In this document: one piece after another, positions 36,480 through 44,170 of the stretch
Layout of the letters: each line of letters begins with the position of its first letter
Numbering within the stretch: the first letter of the stretch is position 1
Translations under genes and position numbers: made by a program
Notes under the pieces: generated by a model
The model's database searches: none
What the model was told of the DNA's origin: nothing
Seen by the model: the letters and a program-made list of their open reading frames with translations, nothing else
DNA from: Paenibacillus sp. FSL H7-0357
GTDB taxonomy: Bacteria; Bacillota; Bacilli; Paenibacillales; Paenibacillaceae
Reading direction: 5' to 3'
Assembly: GCF_000758525.1 (NCBI RefSeq)
Contig: NZ_CP009241.1
Coordinates: forward strand, 4,278,001 to 4,342,000
DNA: 64,000 nucleotides

Positions 36480-36584
36480 CAAGGTGGGAACTGCAGAATA
36501 AAGGTTTGTTTTTTCTATATATAAAATAAAGCATGCATATTGCGATATCTCTTTCCAATATTAGCTTGCCATTGCAGAAAAATA

Positions 36585-36620
36585 GCAGCAGCCCGGGATA
36601 TGATCATCCGTGGCTGCTGC
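36585..36620 (-). terminator. Rho-independent terminator
   Basis: 9-bp stem GCAGCAGCC (36585-36593) / GGCTGCTGC (36612-36620), with TATTTTTC after it on the minus strand. Ends the helicase operon. Confidence 0.68.
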
Positions 36621-36686
36621 CGCATCATTAAGGCTATGAAGTTTAGATTTCATAGTACTTCCGTGTTACAGATTGTAGTAGACGCT

Positions 36687-38885
36687 CTAGTTCTCCACCC
36701 GCCACTGCTTAATCACATTCAGCAGCCCAGGCACATCCAGCCCATCCAGTGAAAAGGCTTTGCGCAGCAGCTCATGGGGGATGAATTCATCATACTTGCC
36801 GAGATATGGCGCTTCATCCTTGCTGAGCAAGGAAAGCGGGTCCGCCGCAGCGGTTGTTTCAGCCATGATCTCTTCCTCCAGCGTATCTGCATCCACACTG
36901 CCGGCGACTACCATATAATAAGGCTCCATCGGTGTGATGGAACGAAGCCCCAGCCGGCCCTTCAGGTTATTCTTCAGCAGCCGTTCCAAAGTCCGGAACT
37001 GCCTGCTTCCCGCCCACGGCAGGATGAACATGGAATCGCCGCCTGCCGGCAGGACGGAGCGCGTGAGCAGACCGCTCTCCTTGGCCAGGCGTCGGGCCCG
37101 TTCCAACCGGGCTGCCGCGCTTGGCGCCAGATACGGATATAGCGACGTCGCTCCCAATACCTCACGGATTTTGGCCATGATCCGGGTATGCACATCACCG
37201 CCAGCACCAAGCCAGAGAGTATCAACCTTGCCGCGCGAGCCTTTGACATAGACGGCCTTATGGCGGTTGTCTACCTCCTCCACCTTCCACAGCTTGCCCG
37301 CCAGCGTGAAGCAGTAACCCGGTGGGGGCACGGTGGTAATGGAGCCGATTTCCTCGGTGCCATTATAGACGACATGCTCCTCATCGTCTTTGAATACAGC
37401 AAGAAAACGGAAATTGTTGACGATCTTCTCACCGGCCAGCCCGATTAGCAGCCCGCCTTCCTCCAGTGTCTCAATATGGCCCATGCCTACCATGTACTCC
37501 ATGAAGGTATCGTAATCCGCCGGGTCAATTCCCCGGAAGGACGGCAGGCTCAGAACAGCTGCCTTCAAATCCTCCGGCTCGGCTTCCCCCATGCTCTTAA
37601 GAATGCTCATCGTCTGATGGTACAGGAGCCCAACCGGCAGCTGGCGCACATTTAGCGGCTCTACCCATTTCTCCCGCACATACAGCTCAATGACCGCAAT
37701 CGCCCGCAGCAGCGTCCAAGGCATCCGCGCGGGCAGCTGCGCCTCCTCATCCTCCTCCTCCGGGGTGACGAAGATCATCTCCGAAGCGGAGTCACCGCGT
37801 CTGCCGGAGCGTCCCAGCCGCTGGACGAAGCTGGCGCAGCTGTAAGGTGCGCCGAGCTGCAGCACCCGCTCCAGCTCGCCAAGATCTATCCCCAGCTCCA
37901 GGGTAAGCGTAGCTGCGGCTACCGCCGGGCCGGGACCTTGCCGGAGCGCGGCTTCCGTCTCTTCGCGCAGCATCGCGGAGATGCTTCCATGATGCACATG
38001 GAACACATCCCGCTCGCCGCGTTTGGCTGCCATGCGCCGCATCTCCAGAATCGCCTCCTCGGCGTCCGTACGGCTGTTGGTGAAGATCAACGCCTTCTTC
38101 AGATGCGTATGATCGTAAATGAACCCGTAATAGGCCTGGCGGGCCCGCTCCAGGTGTTCAGCCTGCACCTCATCCCGCGCATCCGGGAAGGAGAAATGCT
38201 CCACACTCAGCCGCAGCTTGCGCCCCCCTTGCGGAGCGGATACCTCCACGCTCTCCCGCGTACCGGCGGCCAGCCACTCGGTCACGGATGCATAATCGCT
38301 CAGCGTGGCCGAAAGGCCGATCCGCCGGGGATGGCAGCCGGCCATCCGCGAGATCCGGGCCAATTGGCTGAGCACCTGGATGCCGCGGTCCGCCCCCATA
38401 AAGGCATGCACTTCATCAACAATAATGAAGCGCAGATCATGGAACAAGGCGGGGATCGCATTCGGGCGGTTCATGAGCAGCCCCTCCAGCGATTCAGGGG
38501 TAATCTGCAGCACTCCTGAAGGATTCTGCATCAGCTTCGTCTTATCTGCTTGCGGCACATCGCCATGCCAATGCCAGACCGGGATATTGCCTTCCCGCAG
38601 CAAATCATTTAACCGTGTGAATTGATCATTGATCAGCGCTTTGAGCGGCGCAATATAGAGAATCCCCACTGAATCGGACGGGCGCTCATAGAGCTCAGTT
38701 AATGCGGGAAAGAATGCCGCCTCCGTCTTGCCTGAGGCCGTACCGGAGGCAATCAGCAGGTGATGCGGGGTATCAAACAACACGCGGCAAGCATCTACCT
38801 GAGCCTCGCGAAGCGTCTCCCACCGGTTCTTGTAAATAAACTCCTTGATGAAAGGAGCCAGCCTGTAGAACGGATTGTCGCTCAT
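36687..38885 (-). CDS. Lhr/BrxHI-like DEAD/DEAH helicase
   Basis: 732-residue superfamily 2 helicase. Motif I SGTASGKTE (47-55), Ia IAPLKALIND, motif II DEVH (157-160), motif III LSAT (about 191-194), and motif VI QRLGRSGRRG in the second RecA domain, followed by a long C-terminal region of Lhr type. Closest in type to the BrxHI helicase of type 2 BREX loci. Its ATG overlaps the stop of the ATPase gene (ATGA), so the two products are probably made in fixed ratio and interact. Last gene of a three-gene operon with a BrxD-like ATPase and a TerB-N protein. A nucleic-acid-directed defence or repair role is inferred from this company. Confidence 0.88.
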   Translation of the reverse strand: MSDNPFYRLAPFIKEFIYKNRWETLREAQVDACRVLFDTPHHLLIASGTASGKTEAAFFPALTELYERPSDSVGILYIAPLKALINDQFTRLNDLLREGNIPVWHWHGDVPQADKTKLMQNPSGVLQITPESLEGLLMNRPNAIPALFHDLRFIIVDEVHAFMGADRGIQVLSQLARISRMAGCHPRRIGLSATLSDYASVTEWLAAGTRESVEVSAPQGGRKLRLSVEHFSFPDARDEVQAEHLERARQAYYGFIYDHTHLKKALIFTNSRTDAEEAILEMRRMAAKRGERDVFHVHHGSISAMLREETEAALRQGPGPAVAAATLTLELGIDLGELERVLQLGAPYSCASFVQRLGRSGRRGDSASEMIFVTPEEEDEEAQLPARMPWTLLRAIAVIELYVREKWVEPLNVRQLPVGLLYHQTMSILKSMGEAEPEDLKAAVLSLPSFRGIDPADYDTFMEYMVGMGHIETLEEGGLLIGLAGEKIVNNFRFLAVFKDDEEHVVYNGTEEIGSITTVPPPGYCFTLAGKLWKVEEVDNRHKAVYVKGSRGKVDTLWLGAGGDVHTRIMAKIREVLGATSLYPYLAPSAAARLERARRLAKESGLLTRSVLPAGGDSMFILPWAGSRQFRTLERLLKNNLKGRLGLRSITPMEPYYMVVAGSVDADTLEEEIMAETTAAADPLSLLSKDEAPYLGKYDEFIPHELLRKAFSLDGLDVPGLLNVIKQWRVEN

Positions 38886-40201
38886 AGGTCAAACTCCGCA
38901 AGAAATCCGTCCAGTTCGTTTTGCTCAGTCTCCGCCGGTTTTGCGGTGCGCTCGCCCACCAGCTTCTCGAACGAAATCTCCGGATGCTGGTGAAGGGTGT
39001 GTAGCAGATCCATGAAATCACGCACGACCTCGCGCGGGGTCAGCAGTTCGTCAGCGCCCAGTCTGCCCACGGCTTCTTCCATGAAATGCACCAGCTGCTC
39101 TTGGGTAAGTCTCGCTTCATAGCCGTAATGCAGAGCGTGGATATCCCGCAGCTTCTGAAGCAGCACCAGAATTTCCTCATGGGACAGCATGTCCAGCGCA
39201 ATAATCGGTCCGGTGAAATTATTCAGCTCGGCTGAGCCGTAACGGCCCGCCACCAGCCGTGAACGCAAAGCCTCGTAGCTGAACAATCCGCGCCGCCCGT
39301 CTTCAACGAACTGCGGGGTACCTCCAATAAAGATGCCCAGCCGTTCCGCTTTGCCCTGCATCGTATCGTTGAACATTGTCAGCAGCTTTTCGTAGTTGCT
39401 CTGGCGGGAGATGCTGTTGGTAATCTTGTAGAGGTTAACACCCTCATCTATAAAGAGCAGCAGACCTTTATAGCCGATGGCACCTGTGAATTCCGCCCAT
39501 AGCTTCATATAATCGTACCAGTTGTCATCATCAATTATTACGCCTACGCCAAGTGCTTTGCGCGCCTCGGTGCGGGTGGCGAATTCACCGCGGAGCCAGC
39601 GCAGCGCATCTTGCTTCAGCTCATCATCGGCAAGCTTATGACCGTTCCAGTAAGCCGCCAGCACTTTGGCAAAGTCAAAGCCATGCACAAGACCGCGCAT
39701 CTCAGAGGCTACTGTATAAATTCGCTGCTCCACCTCTTTGCCAAGCTGCAGAGAGTCAGGTCCATACCCCTTCTCCTGCATCACCGCCTGCTGAAGTGTC
39801 ATAATCCACTTCTGCAGCATGATTTCGAGTGCTCCACCGTCTGGACGGGTCCGGGTCGACAGGTGGCTCATCAGCTCCCGGTAGGTTGCCAGGCCTTGTC
39901 CTTTCGTTCCTACCAGCCGCCGTTCCGGCGAAAGATCGGCATCCGCGACCACAAAGTCCCGGTCCATGGCGTAGTTACGGATAATTTGCAGCAGAAAGCT
40001 TTTGCCGCTGCCGAATTTACCGGTAATCAGCTTGAAAGCTGCTCCGCCCTCAGCAATATTGTCCATATCCCTGAGGATGGCTTCCACCTCCGGCCGCCGG
40101 CCGACAGCAATATGTTCCAGTCCGATTCGCGGCACTACACCCGCCGTGAGCGAGTTTACGAGTGCGGTTGTCATCCGTTTCGGTATTTTCAGTTCATTCA
40201 T
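38882..40201 (-). CDS. BrxD-like (DUF2791) P-loop ATP-binding protein
   Basis: 439 residues. Walker A GKFGSGKS (61-68) and Walker B LLLFIDE (247-253, then GVNLYKI) with an intervening helical insertion (about 100-235), the layout of DUF2791, the family containing BrxD of type 2 BREX systems. Such ATPases are ORC/Cdc6-like AAA+ or STAND-like switches. The ribosome site AAGAGGTGA overlaps the stop of the preceding TerB gene, and the end overlaps the helicase start by 4 bases, so the three genes are tightly coupled. The N-terminal IGLEHIAVGRRPEVEAILRDM segment is the typical family start. Confidence 0.87.
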   Translation of the reverse strand: MNELKIPKRMTTALVNSLTAGVVPRIGLEHIAVGRRPEVEAILRDMDNIAEGGAAFKLITGKFGSGKSFLLQIIRNYAMDRDFVVADADLSPERRLVGTKGQGLATYRELMSHLSTRTRPDGGALEIMLQKWIMTLQQAVMQEKGYGPDSLQLGKEVEQRIYTVASEMRGLVHGFDFAKVLAAYWNGHKLADDELKQDALRWLRGEFATRTEARKALGVGVIIDDDNWYDYMKLWAEFTGAIGYKGLLLFIDEGVNLYKITNSISRQSNYEKLLTMFNDTMQGKAERLGIFIGGTPQFVEDGRRGLFSYEALRSRLVAGRYGSAELNNFTGPIIALDMLSHEEILVLLQKLRDIHALHYGYEARLTQEQLVHFMEEAVGRLGADELLTPREVVRDFMDLLHTLHQHPEISFEKLVGERTAKPAETEQNELDGFLAEFDL

Positions 40202-40209
40202 CTAGGGAT

Positions 40210-41799
40210 TCACCTCTTCAAATATTGCAGCACGGGCATAAATTCCTCAGTCAATTCCTCACCGTCGATCAGCAGATCGCCGAGCATGTCCATGGCAAGT
40301 TCGTTAATTTCGTCAAACAGCAGCTCCGGCATCGTTCCCCCGGCAGCGGCCAGCTTCTGCACAGCCTTCATTCCATCCTCCTCCGCGAGCGCGGACACTG
40401 CTTGCCGCTGCAGAGGTGTCAATACGGAAGCAAATGCCTCCCACTCATTGTCTGTGCTGCTCGCGGCAGCGGGCGATGCTGGAACACTTATAGTCTCGGG
40501 AACAGCATAAACCTCTTCTATAGGATCCTCTTCTATAAAGGAAGGGACAGCATAATCAAGCTCCGAATCCCCGGAATTCTCTGAATCCTCCAACTCCGCT
40601 GAATCCTCAGATTCCTCTATGGTGAGCAGCGTACGGACAATCTCGGAATCGCTCTCCAGCCGTTCAAGCTTCCTCTTGTCAATAACGACCGCCGGACCTT
40701 TCCCGGCTTGCTCTGCCTTACGGAATTCCCGTTTCAGAAAACGGGTCACCAGATCGTCCATATCCGCGTCGACCTTAACGTCTTTCAGCCGTCCGCGGAA
40801 GCCCATCAGCTCGCGCAGCTTGTTCTCGGTGAGCCGGAAAAGCCGCGTAATCAGGCTGCGCAGAGGCGGAGATTTACTGATCCTTACGACAGGCACCAGT
40901 ACGGAGTAGCCGTAGAGCGATATATCATAAACTGCGCTGCGGAACAGGTAACGCTCCCGCAGTACCGGCGGGCCGGGCGGGAACATTTCCACCAGCTTGG
41001 AGCCATGTTTGCGGGCTACGTAGGCGTCTATTAATGCAACCACTTGAGGAATATAACGCTCAGCCGCCGCTTTGCCTTCACCGGTGTGGAACTTGGATTT
41101 GCCAATGTCATAATCCGACATGACCGTCAGCACGGCAAAGGTCAGCTGTTCCGGTGCAGCAGACAGGCACCTCATCAGCTCCAGCTCCGCCAGATCTCCG
41201 GCAAGTCCGCGTGAACGGGCAACGATGCCTGACAGCGGTACGTCCAGTTTATGCACGAAGGCAAAATCGGCAATCCAGCCGCCAAGATATTGATCGAGCC
41301 GCTTGTATTGATCCCGGTAAGCTTCCCATAGCAAGGACAGCTGTCTGTACCCTTCCTGCGGCTCTTCCCAGCCTACTCCGTTAATCAGCTCATAGACATG
41401 CAGAAAGATATAGGAGAGATCAGTCTTCGGATATCTGCCATGTCTGACTTCATCCCGCCAGAAGAAATACCATCTGTATTGCGCTCCCGTCATATGCCCG
41501 TATGTAGGCCAATAACTCTTGAATGGAACAAACAGTGTTGCGGCTTCCCTTTGTTCCACCAGCTCACGTGCCCGGTGCACAAATTGGCTTTCCGTAGTAG
41601 TTACCGGTTCCTGTTTCTCTTCCATATCCCAGAGCTGAAGCTGTACCGTCTCCTTCGGCGGCTCTTTCTTCTTCACCTTGGCGGCGGCTGACTGCGGCTG
41701 CACATTTCCGGCAGCTTCCCTTGGTGGAATCGGCACATTACTCTCCGTGCTTTCCCAGACCAGCTCTGTAAAGTGCGGCAGCTTCCCTTCATTATTCAT
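40210..41799 (-). CDS. TerB-N/TerB-C domain protein
   Basis: 529 residues. After a disordered N-terminus, residues about 105-300 match TerB-N (FVPFKSYWPTYGHMTGAQYRWYFFWRDEVR..., LSYIFLHVYELINGVGW). A highly acidic linker (about 415-440, EESEDSAELEDSENSGDSE) leads to a C-terminal helical TerB-C-like part (EWEAFASVLTPLQRQAVSAL ... MLGDLLIDGEELTEEFMPVL). TerB-N/TerB-C proteins were linked by comparative genomics to tellurite-type stress and phage-response modules. First gene of the operon, with a terminator upstream at 41858 isolating it from the MFS gene. Function not established. Confidence 0.82.
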   Translation of the reverse strand: MNNEGKLPHFTELVWESTESNVPIPPREAAGNVQPQSAAAKVKKKEPPKETVQLQLWDMEEKQEPVTTTESQFVHRARELVEQREAATLFVPFKSYWPTYGHMTGAQYRWYFFWRDEVRHGRYPKTDLSYIFLHVYELINGVGWEEPQEGYRQLSLLWEAYRDQYKRLDQYLGGWIADFAFVHKLDVPLSGIVARSRGLAGDLAELELMRCLSAAPEQLTFAVLTVMSDYDIGKSKFHTGEGKAAAERYIPQVVALIDAYVARKHGSKLVEMFPPGPPVLRERYLFRSAVYDISLYGYSVLVPVVRISKSPPLRSLITRLFRLTENKLRELMGFRGRLKDVKVDADMDDLVTRFLKREFRKAEQAGKGPAVVIDKRKLERLESDSEIVRTLLTIEESEDSAELEDSENSGDSELDYAVPSFIEEDPIEEVYAVPETISVPASPAAASSTDNEWEAFASVLTPLQRQAVSALAEEDGMKAVQKLAAAGGTMPELLFDEINELAMDMLGDLLIDGEELTEEFMPVLQYLKR

Positions 41800-41857: not shown

Positions 41858-41897
41858 AAAAAACGGTCCTGTTCACATGGTGTGAAGGAACCGTTTT
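41858..41897 (-). terminator. Rho-independent terminator
   Basis: Stem AAAACGG..CC (41858-41869) / GGAACCGTTTT (41886-41897) with one bulge, followed by Ts on the minus strand. Separates the MFS gene from the TerB operon. Confidence 0.65.
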
Positions 41898-43287: not shown

Positions 43288-44055
43288 CTAAAAATCAAGG
43301 AATAAAGCAGCATTAAAGTATTGCCGGGCCAGTGCTTGAAAATAACAGGTTTGTACAGAAATTGCCGAGATCATCAGCATATTTTGCACAGCATCCCTTT
43401 GCGGTCTTGTCAGATGATTCAGCCGGTTCATCAATTTATCCATTGCACTTCTTAGCGAGCTGTCCGTTTTCCAGGAATAATCTTTGTTTGCGCTGCGTTC
43501 AGCTATCCCTTGAGCCTGCAGCGCAGGGCTGCGCTTAATCTCTTCGAACAGTTCCGCATACCCGTGATACAGCTGCGCCGGTTCAACCAAATCATCATCA
43601 TCCCGTTCCGGTTTCAGGAAAAGCAGGCGGAAGAGCTGACGTATACTTTCGAAATCAAGCGCTGCTTTAAGGTCATCAATGATAAATAGCAGCGCTGCCT
43701 GATTAACCGAATACTTTTTTCCTTCCCTAGGTGAGCCGAGATATTCCTTGAAGTCGCGCTTCACCCAATTTTGCATAGCGGTGGCACTCAGTGTGGAATA
43801 CTCTATGAGATGTCCAAGAGCAGCAATGTCCGAGAGTGAGAACCCTTTGACGTTCCCTCTTTTGATGATCTTTTGCAGGATCGGCGGGATTTCCGTAGAG
43901 AGGAACGCAGGCAGGGACATCCCCTGTCTCACCTCTTCGTGATGAAATTTCGTCCAGACCTCCTGAAGAATATGCAGCGGTTTTTGCTCTGAACTTCCGG
44001 TCAGCGAGAGCAGCAATCCAGACATTTCTTTTCGGCTTAAAGTAAAAGCTTCCAT
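43288..44055 (-). CDS. DUF1836 domain protein
   Basis: 255 residues. The central region (SLSDIAALGHLIEYSTLSATAMQNWVKRDFKEYLGSPREGKKYSVNQAALLFIIDDLKAAL) is the DUF1836 signature, a MerR-like helix-turn-helix predicted to bind DNA. The C-terminal helical part is divergent. The start ATG 44055 follows GGGGTG at good spacing; the frame is open to 44112 without one. Divergent from the CNNM-type gene at 44171 and possibly its regulator, which is inference only. Confidence 0.8.
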   Translation of the reverse strand: MEAFTLSRKEMSGLLLSLTGSSEQKPLHILQEVWTKFHHEEVRQGMSLPAFLSTEIPPILQKIIKRGNVKGFSLSDIAALGHLIEYSTLSATAMQNWVKRDFKEYLGSPREGKKYSVNQAALLFIIDDLKAALDFESIRQLFRLLFLKPERDDDDLVEPAQLYHGYAELFEEIKRSPALQAQGIAERSANKDYSWKTDSSLRSAMDKLMNRLNHLTRPQRDAVQNMLMISAISVQTCYFQALARQYFNAALFLDF

Positions 44056-44170
44056 AGATGGCACCCCTTCGCCATTTGATATTTTAATGAAAAGTTCGTA
44101 CAATAGGTTCAAGTGAACTCATAATATGAGTATAACCTATTTTAATAACGAGAGGGATGGTAAAGATTTT

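Follow-up and report, generated by a model that had tools for sequence, protein, structure and literature searches.

The 64,000-nucleotide stretch of Paenibacillus sp. FSL H7-0357 DNA analysed here (NZ_CP009241.1, positions 4,278,001 to 4,342,000; hereafter the window) carries on its minus strand three genes that can be assigned to the Shango (SngABC) anti-phage family, because all three predicted proteins match the SngA, SngB and SngC models of PADLOC over almost their full length. The SngA model was matched at 355.8 bits (1.8e-106) by residues 55-527 of 529, the SngB model at 685.9 bits (6.3e-207) by residues 1-439 of 439, and the SngC model at 793.9 bits (4.6e-239) by residues 2-726 of 732. 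The founding Shango paper is said to be that of Millman et al. from 2022. Shango as a kind is known, and what is new here is an unusual state of it: TerB-less, single-copy, core and mostly vertical in descent. The evidence leans, without great force, towards a TerB-less Shango-type operon in which SngB would load SngC under the control of SngA and which would have become fixed as lineage-wide immunity.

The first-pass annotation, made from the sequence without database searches, had described a co-directional trio of a TerB-N/TerB-C protein, an ATPase and a helicase with overlapping gene ends, and this description was confirmed by the open reading frames (ORFs), Pfam and the sequence. The sngA-like gene (40210..41799) encodes a protein of 529 amino acids (aa) with TerB_N (3.5e-33) and TerB_C (2.1e-9) domains, the sngB-like gene (38882..40201) a BrxC/BrxD-family AAA+ ATPase of 439 aa (BrxC_BrxD, 1.4e-164), and the sngC-like gene (36687..38885) an SF2 DEAD/H helicase of 732 aa (DEAD 7.9e-25, Helicase_C 1.6e-14); all three, on the minus strand, were called from the ORF list, Pfam and PADLOC. 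SngB carries a Walker A motif, GSGKS, at residue 64 and a Walker B DE at 252, and SngC carries motif I, SGTASGKT, at 47, DEVH at 157, SAT at 192 and QRLGRSGRRG at 355. The proposed operon coupling was borne out as well, with a Shine-Dalgarno-like GAGGTG of sngB (40211..40216, minus strand) overlapping the TGA stop of sngA, and an ATGA start/stop overlap (38882..38885, minus strand) joining sngB to sngC. Three adjacent co-directional genes are a Shango trait, and the A-B-C order on one strand was kept in 40/40 related loci sampled by an SngB match. The 4-nt overlap of sngB and sngC recurs in 37 of 38 Paenibacillaceae loci (34 ATGA, 3 GTGA), so that, with order and strand, the arrangement is beyond chance.

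SngA contains TerB_N and TerB_C only. The TerB domain PF05099, another Shango trait, is missing, and because of this the trio is provisionally filed, on its domain content, as a TerB-less Shango-type subtype and not as canonical Shango. A passage of PMC10952713 lists PF05099 for Shango without saying that Shango must have it. Among the aligned SngA homologues (n=53), TerB_C was found in 53/53, TerB_N in 52/53 and PF05099 in 0/53, whereas the SngA of the E. coli plasmid has all three (PF05099 at 31.8 bits, cut-off 24.4). The TerB_N and TerB_C domains could also be read as those of an adaptor for tellurite or metal stress signals that is joined to an ATPase and a helicase, a system that would serve a stress response and not DNA defence. 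This is very unlikely, given that the TerB core domain occurs neither in the window SngA nor in its 53 homologues and that no ter genes were found among 25 of the 43 Pfam families listed for the other ORFs of the window. SngA is also the fastest-changing member of the trio, with a mean distance over 28 genomes of 0.568 vs 0.222 and 0.228 for the other two proteins, and of about 0.5 even within its folded domains. Its AlphaFold model reaches a mean predicted local distance difference test score (pLDDT) of 83.7 and a predicted template modelling score (pTM) of 0.62, with low confidence in the tail 1-60 and the linker 397-446; the predicted SngB model (pLDDT 88.5, pTM 0.85) is confident save for the last 20 residues. 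No solved structure was matched by the SngA or SngB profiles. Longer SngA proteins occur in the P. peoriae plasmid trio (L204 5520-12488; 1052 aa) and in a Desulfosporosinus trio (L147 4307-11593; 1225 aa), and no Pfam family matches their long N-terminal half at 0.01.

In this Paenibacillus genus and in some close genera, the trio has become a fixed chromosomal locus. In 100 same-genus genomes, SngA was found in 100/100, SngB in 100/100 and SngC in 99/100; all 96 good-quality genomes have SngB, and the genome under study holds one copy of the trio. The single SngC-less genome (G022) has a short SngB match, residues 1-402, and the same short match is seen in a P. forsythiae record (L091), presumably of the same genome, where it is cut off by the edge of a 4.8-kb contig. 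SngB appears split in 5/100 same-genus genomes and gyrB in 4/100; SngB is thus broken about as often as a gene that the cell cannot lose, and the breaks may be errors in the sequence. Beyond the genus, an SngB match was found in 54/70 genomes of the sister genus, 135/296 of the order and 55/398 of the class, although two of these 55, at 27-32% identity, may be BrxD. The trio is not family-wide, as members of seven genera of the same family appear among the 20 listed of the 161 matchless order genomes. Of 326 named relatives the best 80 were compared; the closest belong to Paenibacillus, Saccharibacillus and Fontibacillus are more distant, and records of P. typhae and P. silagei carry SngB. Seven genomes of another Bacilli family match SngB at 40-42% identity. 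One genome holds two SngB copies, one of them core (78%) and the other distant (48%).

Relatives on mobile elements were also surveyed. An SngB relative at 1e-20 is present in 683 of 72,556 plasmids, 541 of them conjugative, and the P. peoriae plasmid carries a trio of its own with an SngB 65% identical to that of the window. In E. coli, at least 80% of the plasmid-type trio was found in 437/5426 genomes, a megablast count that covers this type of trio and leaves other types uncounted. Carriage by phages was considered and rejected: no match was found in 50,697 phage records, and IMG/VR gave one relative, 43% identical, among 226 pattern-matching contig stretches. Shango usually has a scattered distribution and sits in defence islands or on mobile elements (a habit and no formal criterion), and the Paenibacillus locus follows none of this. 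The first-pass annotation had named presence in all strains as a core gene set, with no link to defence islands, as the outcome that would count against its reading, and at the species level this is largely what was found, in view of the counts above and of the gene flanks described below.

The trio has for the most part been inherited vertically, with some exchange long ago, as judged from distance correlations and from agreeing and conflicting splits. Mantel correlations to GyrB over 36 genomes were 0.80 for SngB, 0.83 for SngC and 0.82 for SngA, with 0/2000 permutations as high. Over 28 genomes, distance correlations to ParE were 0.893, 0.904 and 0.888 for SngB, SngC and SngA (control GyrB-ParE, 0.911), and those to GyrB were lower, at 0.839, 0.857 and 0.866. 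The SngB+SngC and GyrB+ParE trees have 18 and 15 well-supported splits, 12 of them in common; 3 of the 18 Sng splits conflict with GyrB+ParE, and the GyrB and ParE trees show 2 conflicts between themselves. On a GyrB tree of 50 genomes, in which the 12 genomes without the trio were hand-chosen, trio presence needs 5 changes, and within the crown of 44 the trio is missing from a single clade of 6 and from a pair. In an SngB tree of 67 rows, which carries a long-branch warning for the E. coli and BrxD rows, 33 Paenibacillaceae core copies and the P. peoriae plasmid copy form one group (support 100/99), and the core copies without the plasmid one are supported at 74/92.

The trio is under purifying selection. 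Across nine close species, the mean ratio of nonsynonymous to synonymous substitution rates (dN/dS) was 0.032 for SngB (28/36 pairs computable), 0.034 for SngC (35/36), 0.025 for GyrB (36/36) and 0.124 for SngA (28/36), values that are rough since dS is near saturation. All 37 of 37 core loci keep the Walker motifs of SngB and motifs II, III and VI of SngC intact; motif I of SngC is intact in 36/37. The same core-derived patterns were matched in non-core loci less completely (Walker A 29/36, Walker B 23/36, motif VI 20/31).

The case for an anti-phage function comes from tested relatives. A TerB-like protein, an ATPase and a helicase from PA14, cloned in PAO1, lowered plating 10-100-fold for many phages, not all (Johnson et al., 2023; PMC10250203), and E. 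coli Shango inhibited two phages about 10-fold (PMC10250203). The statement of the first-pass annotation that no experiment on such a trio was known is therefore wrong for the family, and holds for the Paenibacillus copies as far as a literature search shows. Its suggestion of an anti-phage module stands on family membership: by analogy with Shango the function is plausible, and the genomic surroundings do not show it. The mechanism of Shango is given as unknown in a review (PMC12926258). The Shango trios on E. coli and Klebsiella plasmids likewise consist of a TerB_N/TerB_C protein, a BrxD-like ATPase and an SF2 helicase, and in E. coli the A-B-C order is identical, with a 4-nt B/C overlap. 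They differ from the Paenibacillus trio in the PF05099 domain of SngA, absent from the latter, and in SngC, which is 31% identical; moreover, the Paenibacillus locus is core and chromosomal, whereas the plasmid-type trio is found in a minority of E. coli genomes.

A working scheme can be carried over from the BrxD-BrxHI pair. SngB, as an ORC/Cdc6-like AAA+ ATPase, would assemble on DNA and load or switch on SngC, a BrxHI/Lhr-like SF2 helicase that would then travel along the DNA and unwind it. SngA, because it changes fastest, may be the scaffold and sensor that sets when the machine acts. No nuclease domain reaches the Pfam cut-off in the trio proteins (SngC UvrC_RNaseH, 15.8 bits, under 24.3), so any destruction of DNA would be left to host nucleases. 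The main task of such a machine would be to give the whole lineage a permanent immunity to incoming DNA. In type 2 BREX, BrxD and BrxHI are a linked dyad: BrxD, an ORC-Cdc6 AAA+ ATPase that stands alone, is proposed as loader or activator of BrxHI, and the C-terminus of BrxHI is said to resemble that of Lhr (PMC12839542); the words Shango and TerB are absent from the main text of that paper. A 'potentially distinct' clade of helicases, set apart by their anti-phage functions, was found to be formed by SngC, BrxHI, DruE and DpdJ (PMC12278908).

The relation of the ATPase and the helicase to BrxD and BrxHI, proposed in the first-pass annotation, holds, as these are the second-best PADLOC families (BrxD 5.1e-49, 165.6 bits, for SngB; BrxHI 1.2e-122, 408.6 bits, for SngC). 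Like the trio, the type 2 BREX dyad described above pairs an ORC/Cdc6-like ATPase with an SF2 helicase whose tail is Lhr-like. That the locus is a remnant or detached type 2 BREX module, left with BrxD and BrxHI after loss of the core genes, is nevertheless extremely unlikely, and the idea was rejected: the SngB and SngC models score far higher than those of BrxD and BrxHI (685.9 vs 165.6 and 793.9 vs 408.6 bits), SngB stays under the BrxD equivalog cut-off (170.5 bits, cut-off 350), and SngA stands where PglX, PglZ and PglW would be expected. The PglX, PglZ, BrxC/PglY and PglW components that mark a type 2 BREX locus are missing here. The first-pass annotation had noted this absence, and PADLOC at 1e-10 found no PglX, PglZ, PglW or PglY among the 58 other non-overlapping ORFs (at least 100 aa) of the window; its matches there were mad3 (3 ORFs), AriA (2), PDC-M43B (1) and mad8 (1). 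The genome is not BREX-free, yet its PglZ, BrxL, BrxC and PglX genes are clustered about 2.5 Mb away, at about 6.811-6.828 Mb, with a GmrSD/Orf5-like neighbour, and judged from these four genes the separate locus appears type 1-like. The best BLAST match of SngB to the BrxC of this genome covers 16 residues at the P-loop (E 0.021). BREX and a Shango-type trio thus coexist in one genome.

Fixation and constraint also fit a different role. The trio could be a core genome-maintenance machine, in which the loader-helicase acts on the stalled forks, R-loops and damaged DNA of the cell itself, mobile Shango being a defence relative or the locus a copy domesticated from defence; this is a possible explanation that falls short of probable. 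Presence in the genus is like that of gyrB, apparent breakage is about equal, dN/dS is near that of GyrB, and few defence genes lie nearby. The best sequence matches of SngC in the PDB are 5v9x and 7lhl, which we take to be Lhr proteins. SngC shares its helicase core with Lhr and ligase-associated DEXH repair helicases (TIGR04121, 214.5 bits over residues 13-650), but this score is far under the cut-off of 850, SngC is part of a trio, and the Lhr membership cut-offs of WH_Lhr PF19306 (17.8 vs 27) and TIGR03817 (126.2 vs 874.1) are not reached. A role in DNA repair is ascribed to bacterial Lhr helicases (PMC10953399), an AddB/PD-(D/E)XK gene directly follows sngC in one Chloroflexi metagenome-assembled genome, and non-defence use of defence-like proteins has precedents in Cran1 (PMC12796447) and LypABC (PMC13236601). 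Against maintenance, the trio is absent from the clade of 6, from the pair and from 16/70 sister-genus genomes, so it is not universally essential; a LexA-type box, GAACN4GTTC, lies upstream in 1/37 loci only (some sngA starts are uncertain); and the nearest tested relatives are anti-phage. A wider form of the idea, in which an ORC-like loader places a helicase on problem DNA of the cell, and Shango and BrxD-BrxHI are defence versions of this cellular machine, or the locus an immune system domesticated by the lineage, is put forward more tentatively still.

The gene neighbourhood bears on both explanations. Upstream of the trio lies the MFS gene, and downstream an operon for a sugar ABC transporter; the ORFs and Pfam matches of the window agree on this with the first-pass annotation. 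The MFS-DUF1836-CorC neighbours of the window are retained in 11/20 sampled same-genus loci and a different set in 7/8 sister-genus loci; because these sets differ, the trio occupies different sites from clade to clade and is intact at every locus sampled. The DUF1836 protein (PF08876, 2.7e-11; window 43288-44112) adjoins the MFS gene and is part of this genus-conserved neighbourhood. Using PADLOC at 1e-20, the flanks of 36 core loci (144 ORFs) gave mad3 in 2 and PDC-S07 in 1, at most 3/144. The mad3 match is presumably generic, since the best E-value of the three matching ORFs in the window, 2.8e-31, equals the best Pfam response-regulator match there. In non-core flanks (124 ORFs, 31 loci), 53 PADLOC families were matched, and the 25 families listed correspond to probably at least 7 ORFs, an estimate because families were not assigned to single ORFs; the sample had been reduced from 155 ORFs to 4 per locus, and 5/36 non-core loci were omitted. 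The contrast between core and non-core flanks is present but modest. In an empty-site comparison, relatives of the flanking gene used, at 39-44% identity, were found in only 5/16 trio-less genomes.

Several points weigh against reading the locus as a fixed Shango-type immunity. Core status, a single copy and few defence neighbours are not usual for a defence cassette. The SngB of the enterobacterial plasmid-type Shango is only 38% identical to that of the window, and the window SngA matches the E. coli plasmid SngA by BLAST at 26% over 43 aa (E 0.003). Such near-absent similarity, together with the missing PF05099, means that function may have drifted, and the low pairwise similarity would also fit two SngA subtypes. 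The 3 conflicting splits of 18 imply that some transfer has happened. A literature search on Shango and Paenibacillus found no phage test of any Paenibacillus copy.

If the trio does serve immunity, a whole genus has retained this defence system throughout its history. Programs that detect defence systems may count all genomes of the genus as Shango carriers, though the locus could be a household gene there, and a fixed, single and strongly constrained genus-wide copy is well suited to studying the work of the machine in the absence of phage.

The trio may form a transcription unit of its own, because a hairpin with a U-run follows the helicase gene and a hairpin with a T6 run lies between the trio and the MFS gene. 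The first, intrinsic-terminator-like (36572..36632, minus strand), folds at -25.5 kcal/mol with a z of -3.35, and 0/200 shuffles were equally stable. The second (41858..41895, minus strand) is present in 8/11 aligned close relatives and is probably the terminator of the MFS gene; it may be a plain terminator of this kind or else an attenuator of the trio. It sits between a weak promoter-like stretch, seen by eye (TTGATG, TAATAT), and sngA. A simple promoter scan of the window found no sigma-70-type site on the minus strand and 2 sites, both plus, vs 4.1 expected, and a simple terminator scan found 7 terminator-like sites vs 5.1 expected, with both hairpins described here missed. SOS control was considered and found no support, the LexA-type box being found within 220 bases upstream of that one sngA start in 37 and nowhere in the window, in a scan run without a lexA gene as positive control. 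The idea of a structured leader RNA was rejected (191-nt upstream stretch, not unusually stable, z -1.47, 15/200 shuffles equally good), and an Rfam scan of the window gave no match.

Variant layouts were seen in distant relatives. In the Chloroflexi genome (L135 951-14760), a DUF499 gene, a 1282-aa SngA, SngB, SngC and the AddB-like PD-(D/E)XK gene stand in a row, the last of these overlapping sngC, which makes a five-gene extended form possible. Because of this gene after the Chloroflexi trio, a partner nuclease is possible in relatives of the Paenibacillus trio. About 3.5 kb separate sngB from sngC in two genomes (L247, L249) of one genus in the other Bacilli family that matches SngB at 40-42% identity, and in L247 this gap holds an amidohydrolase gene and a MerR-methyltransferase gene.

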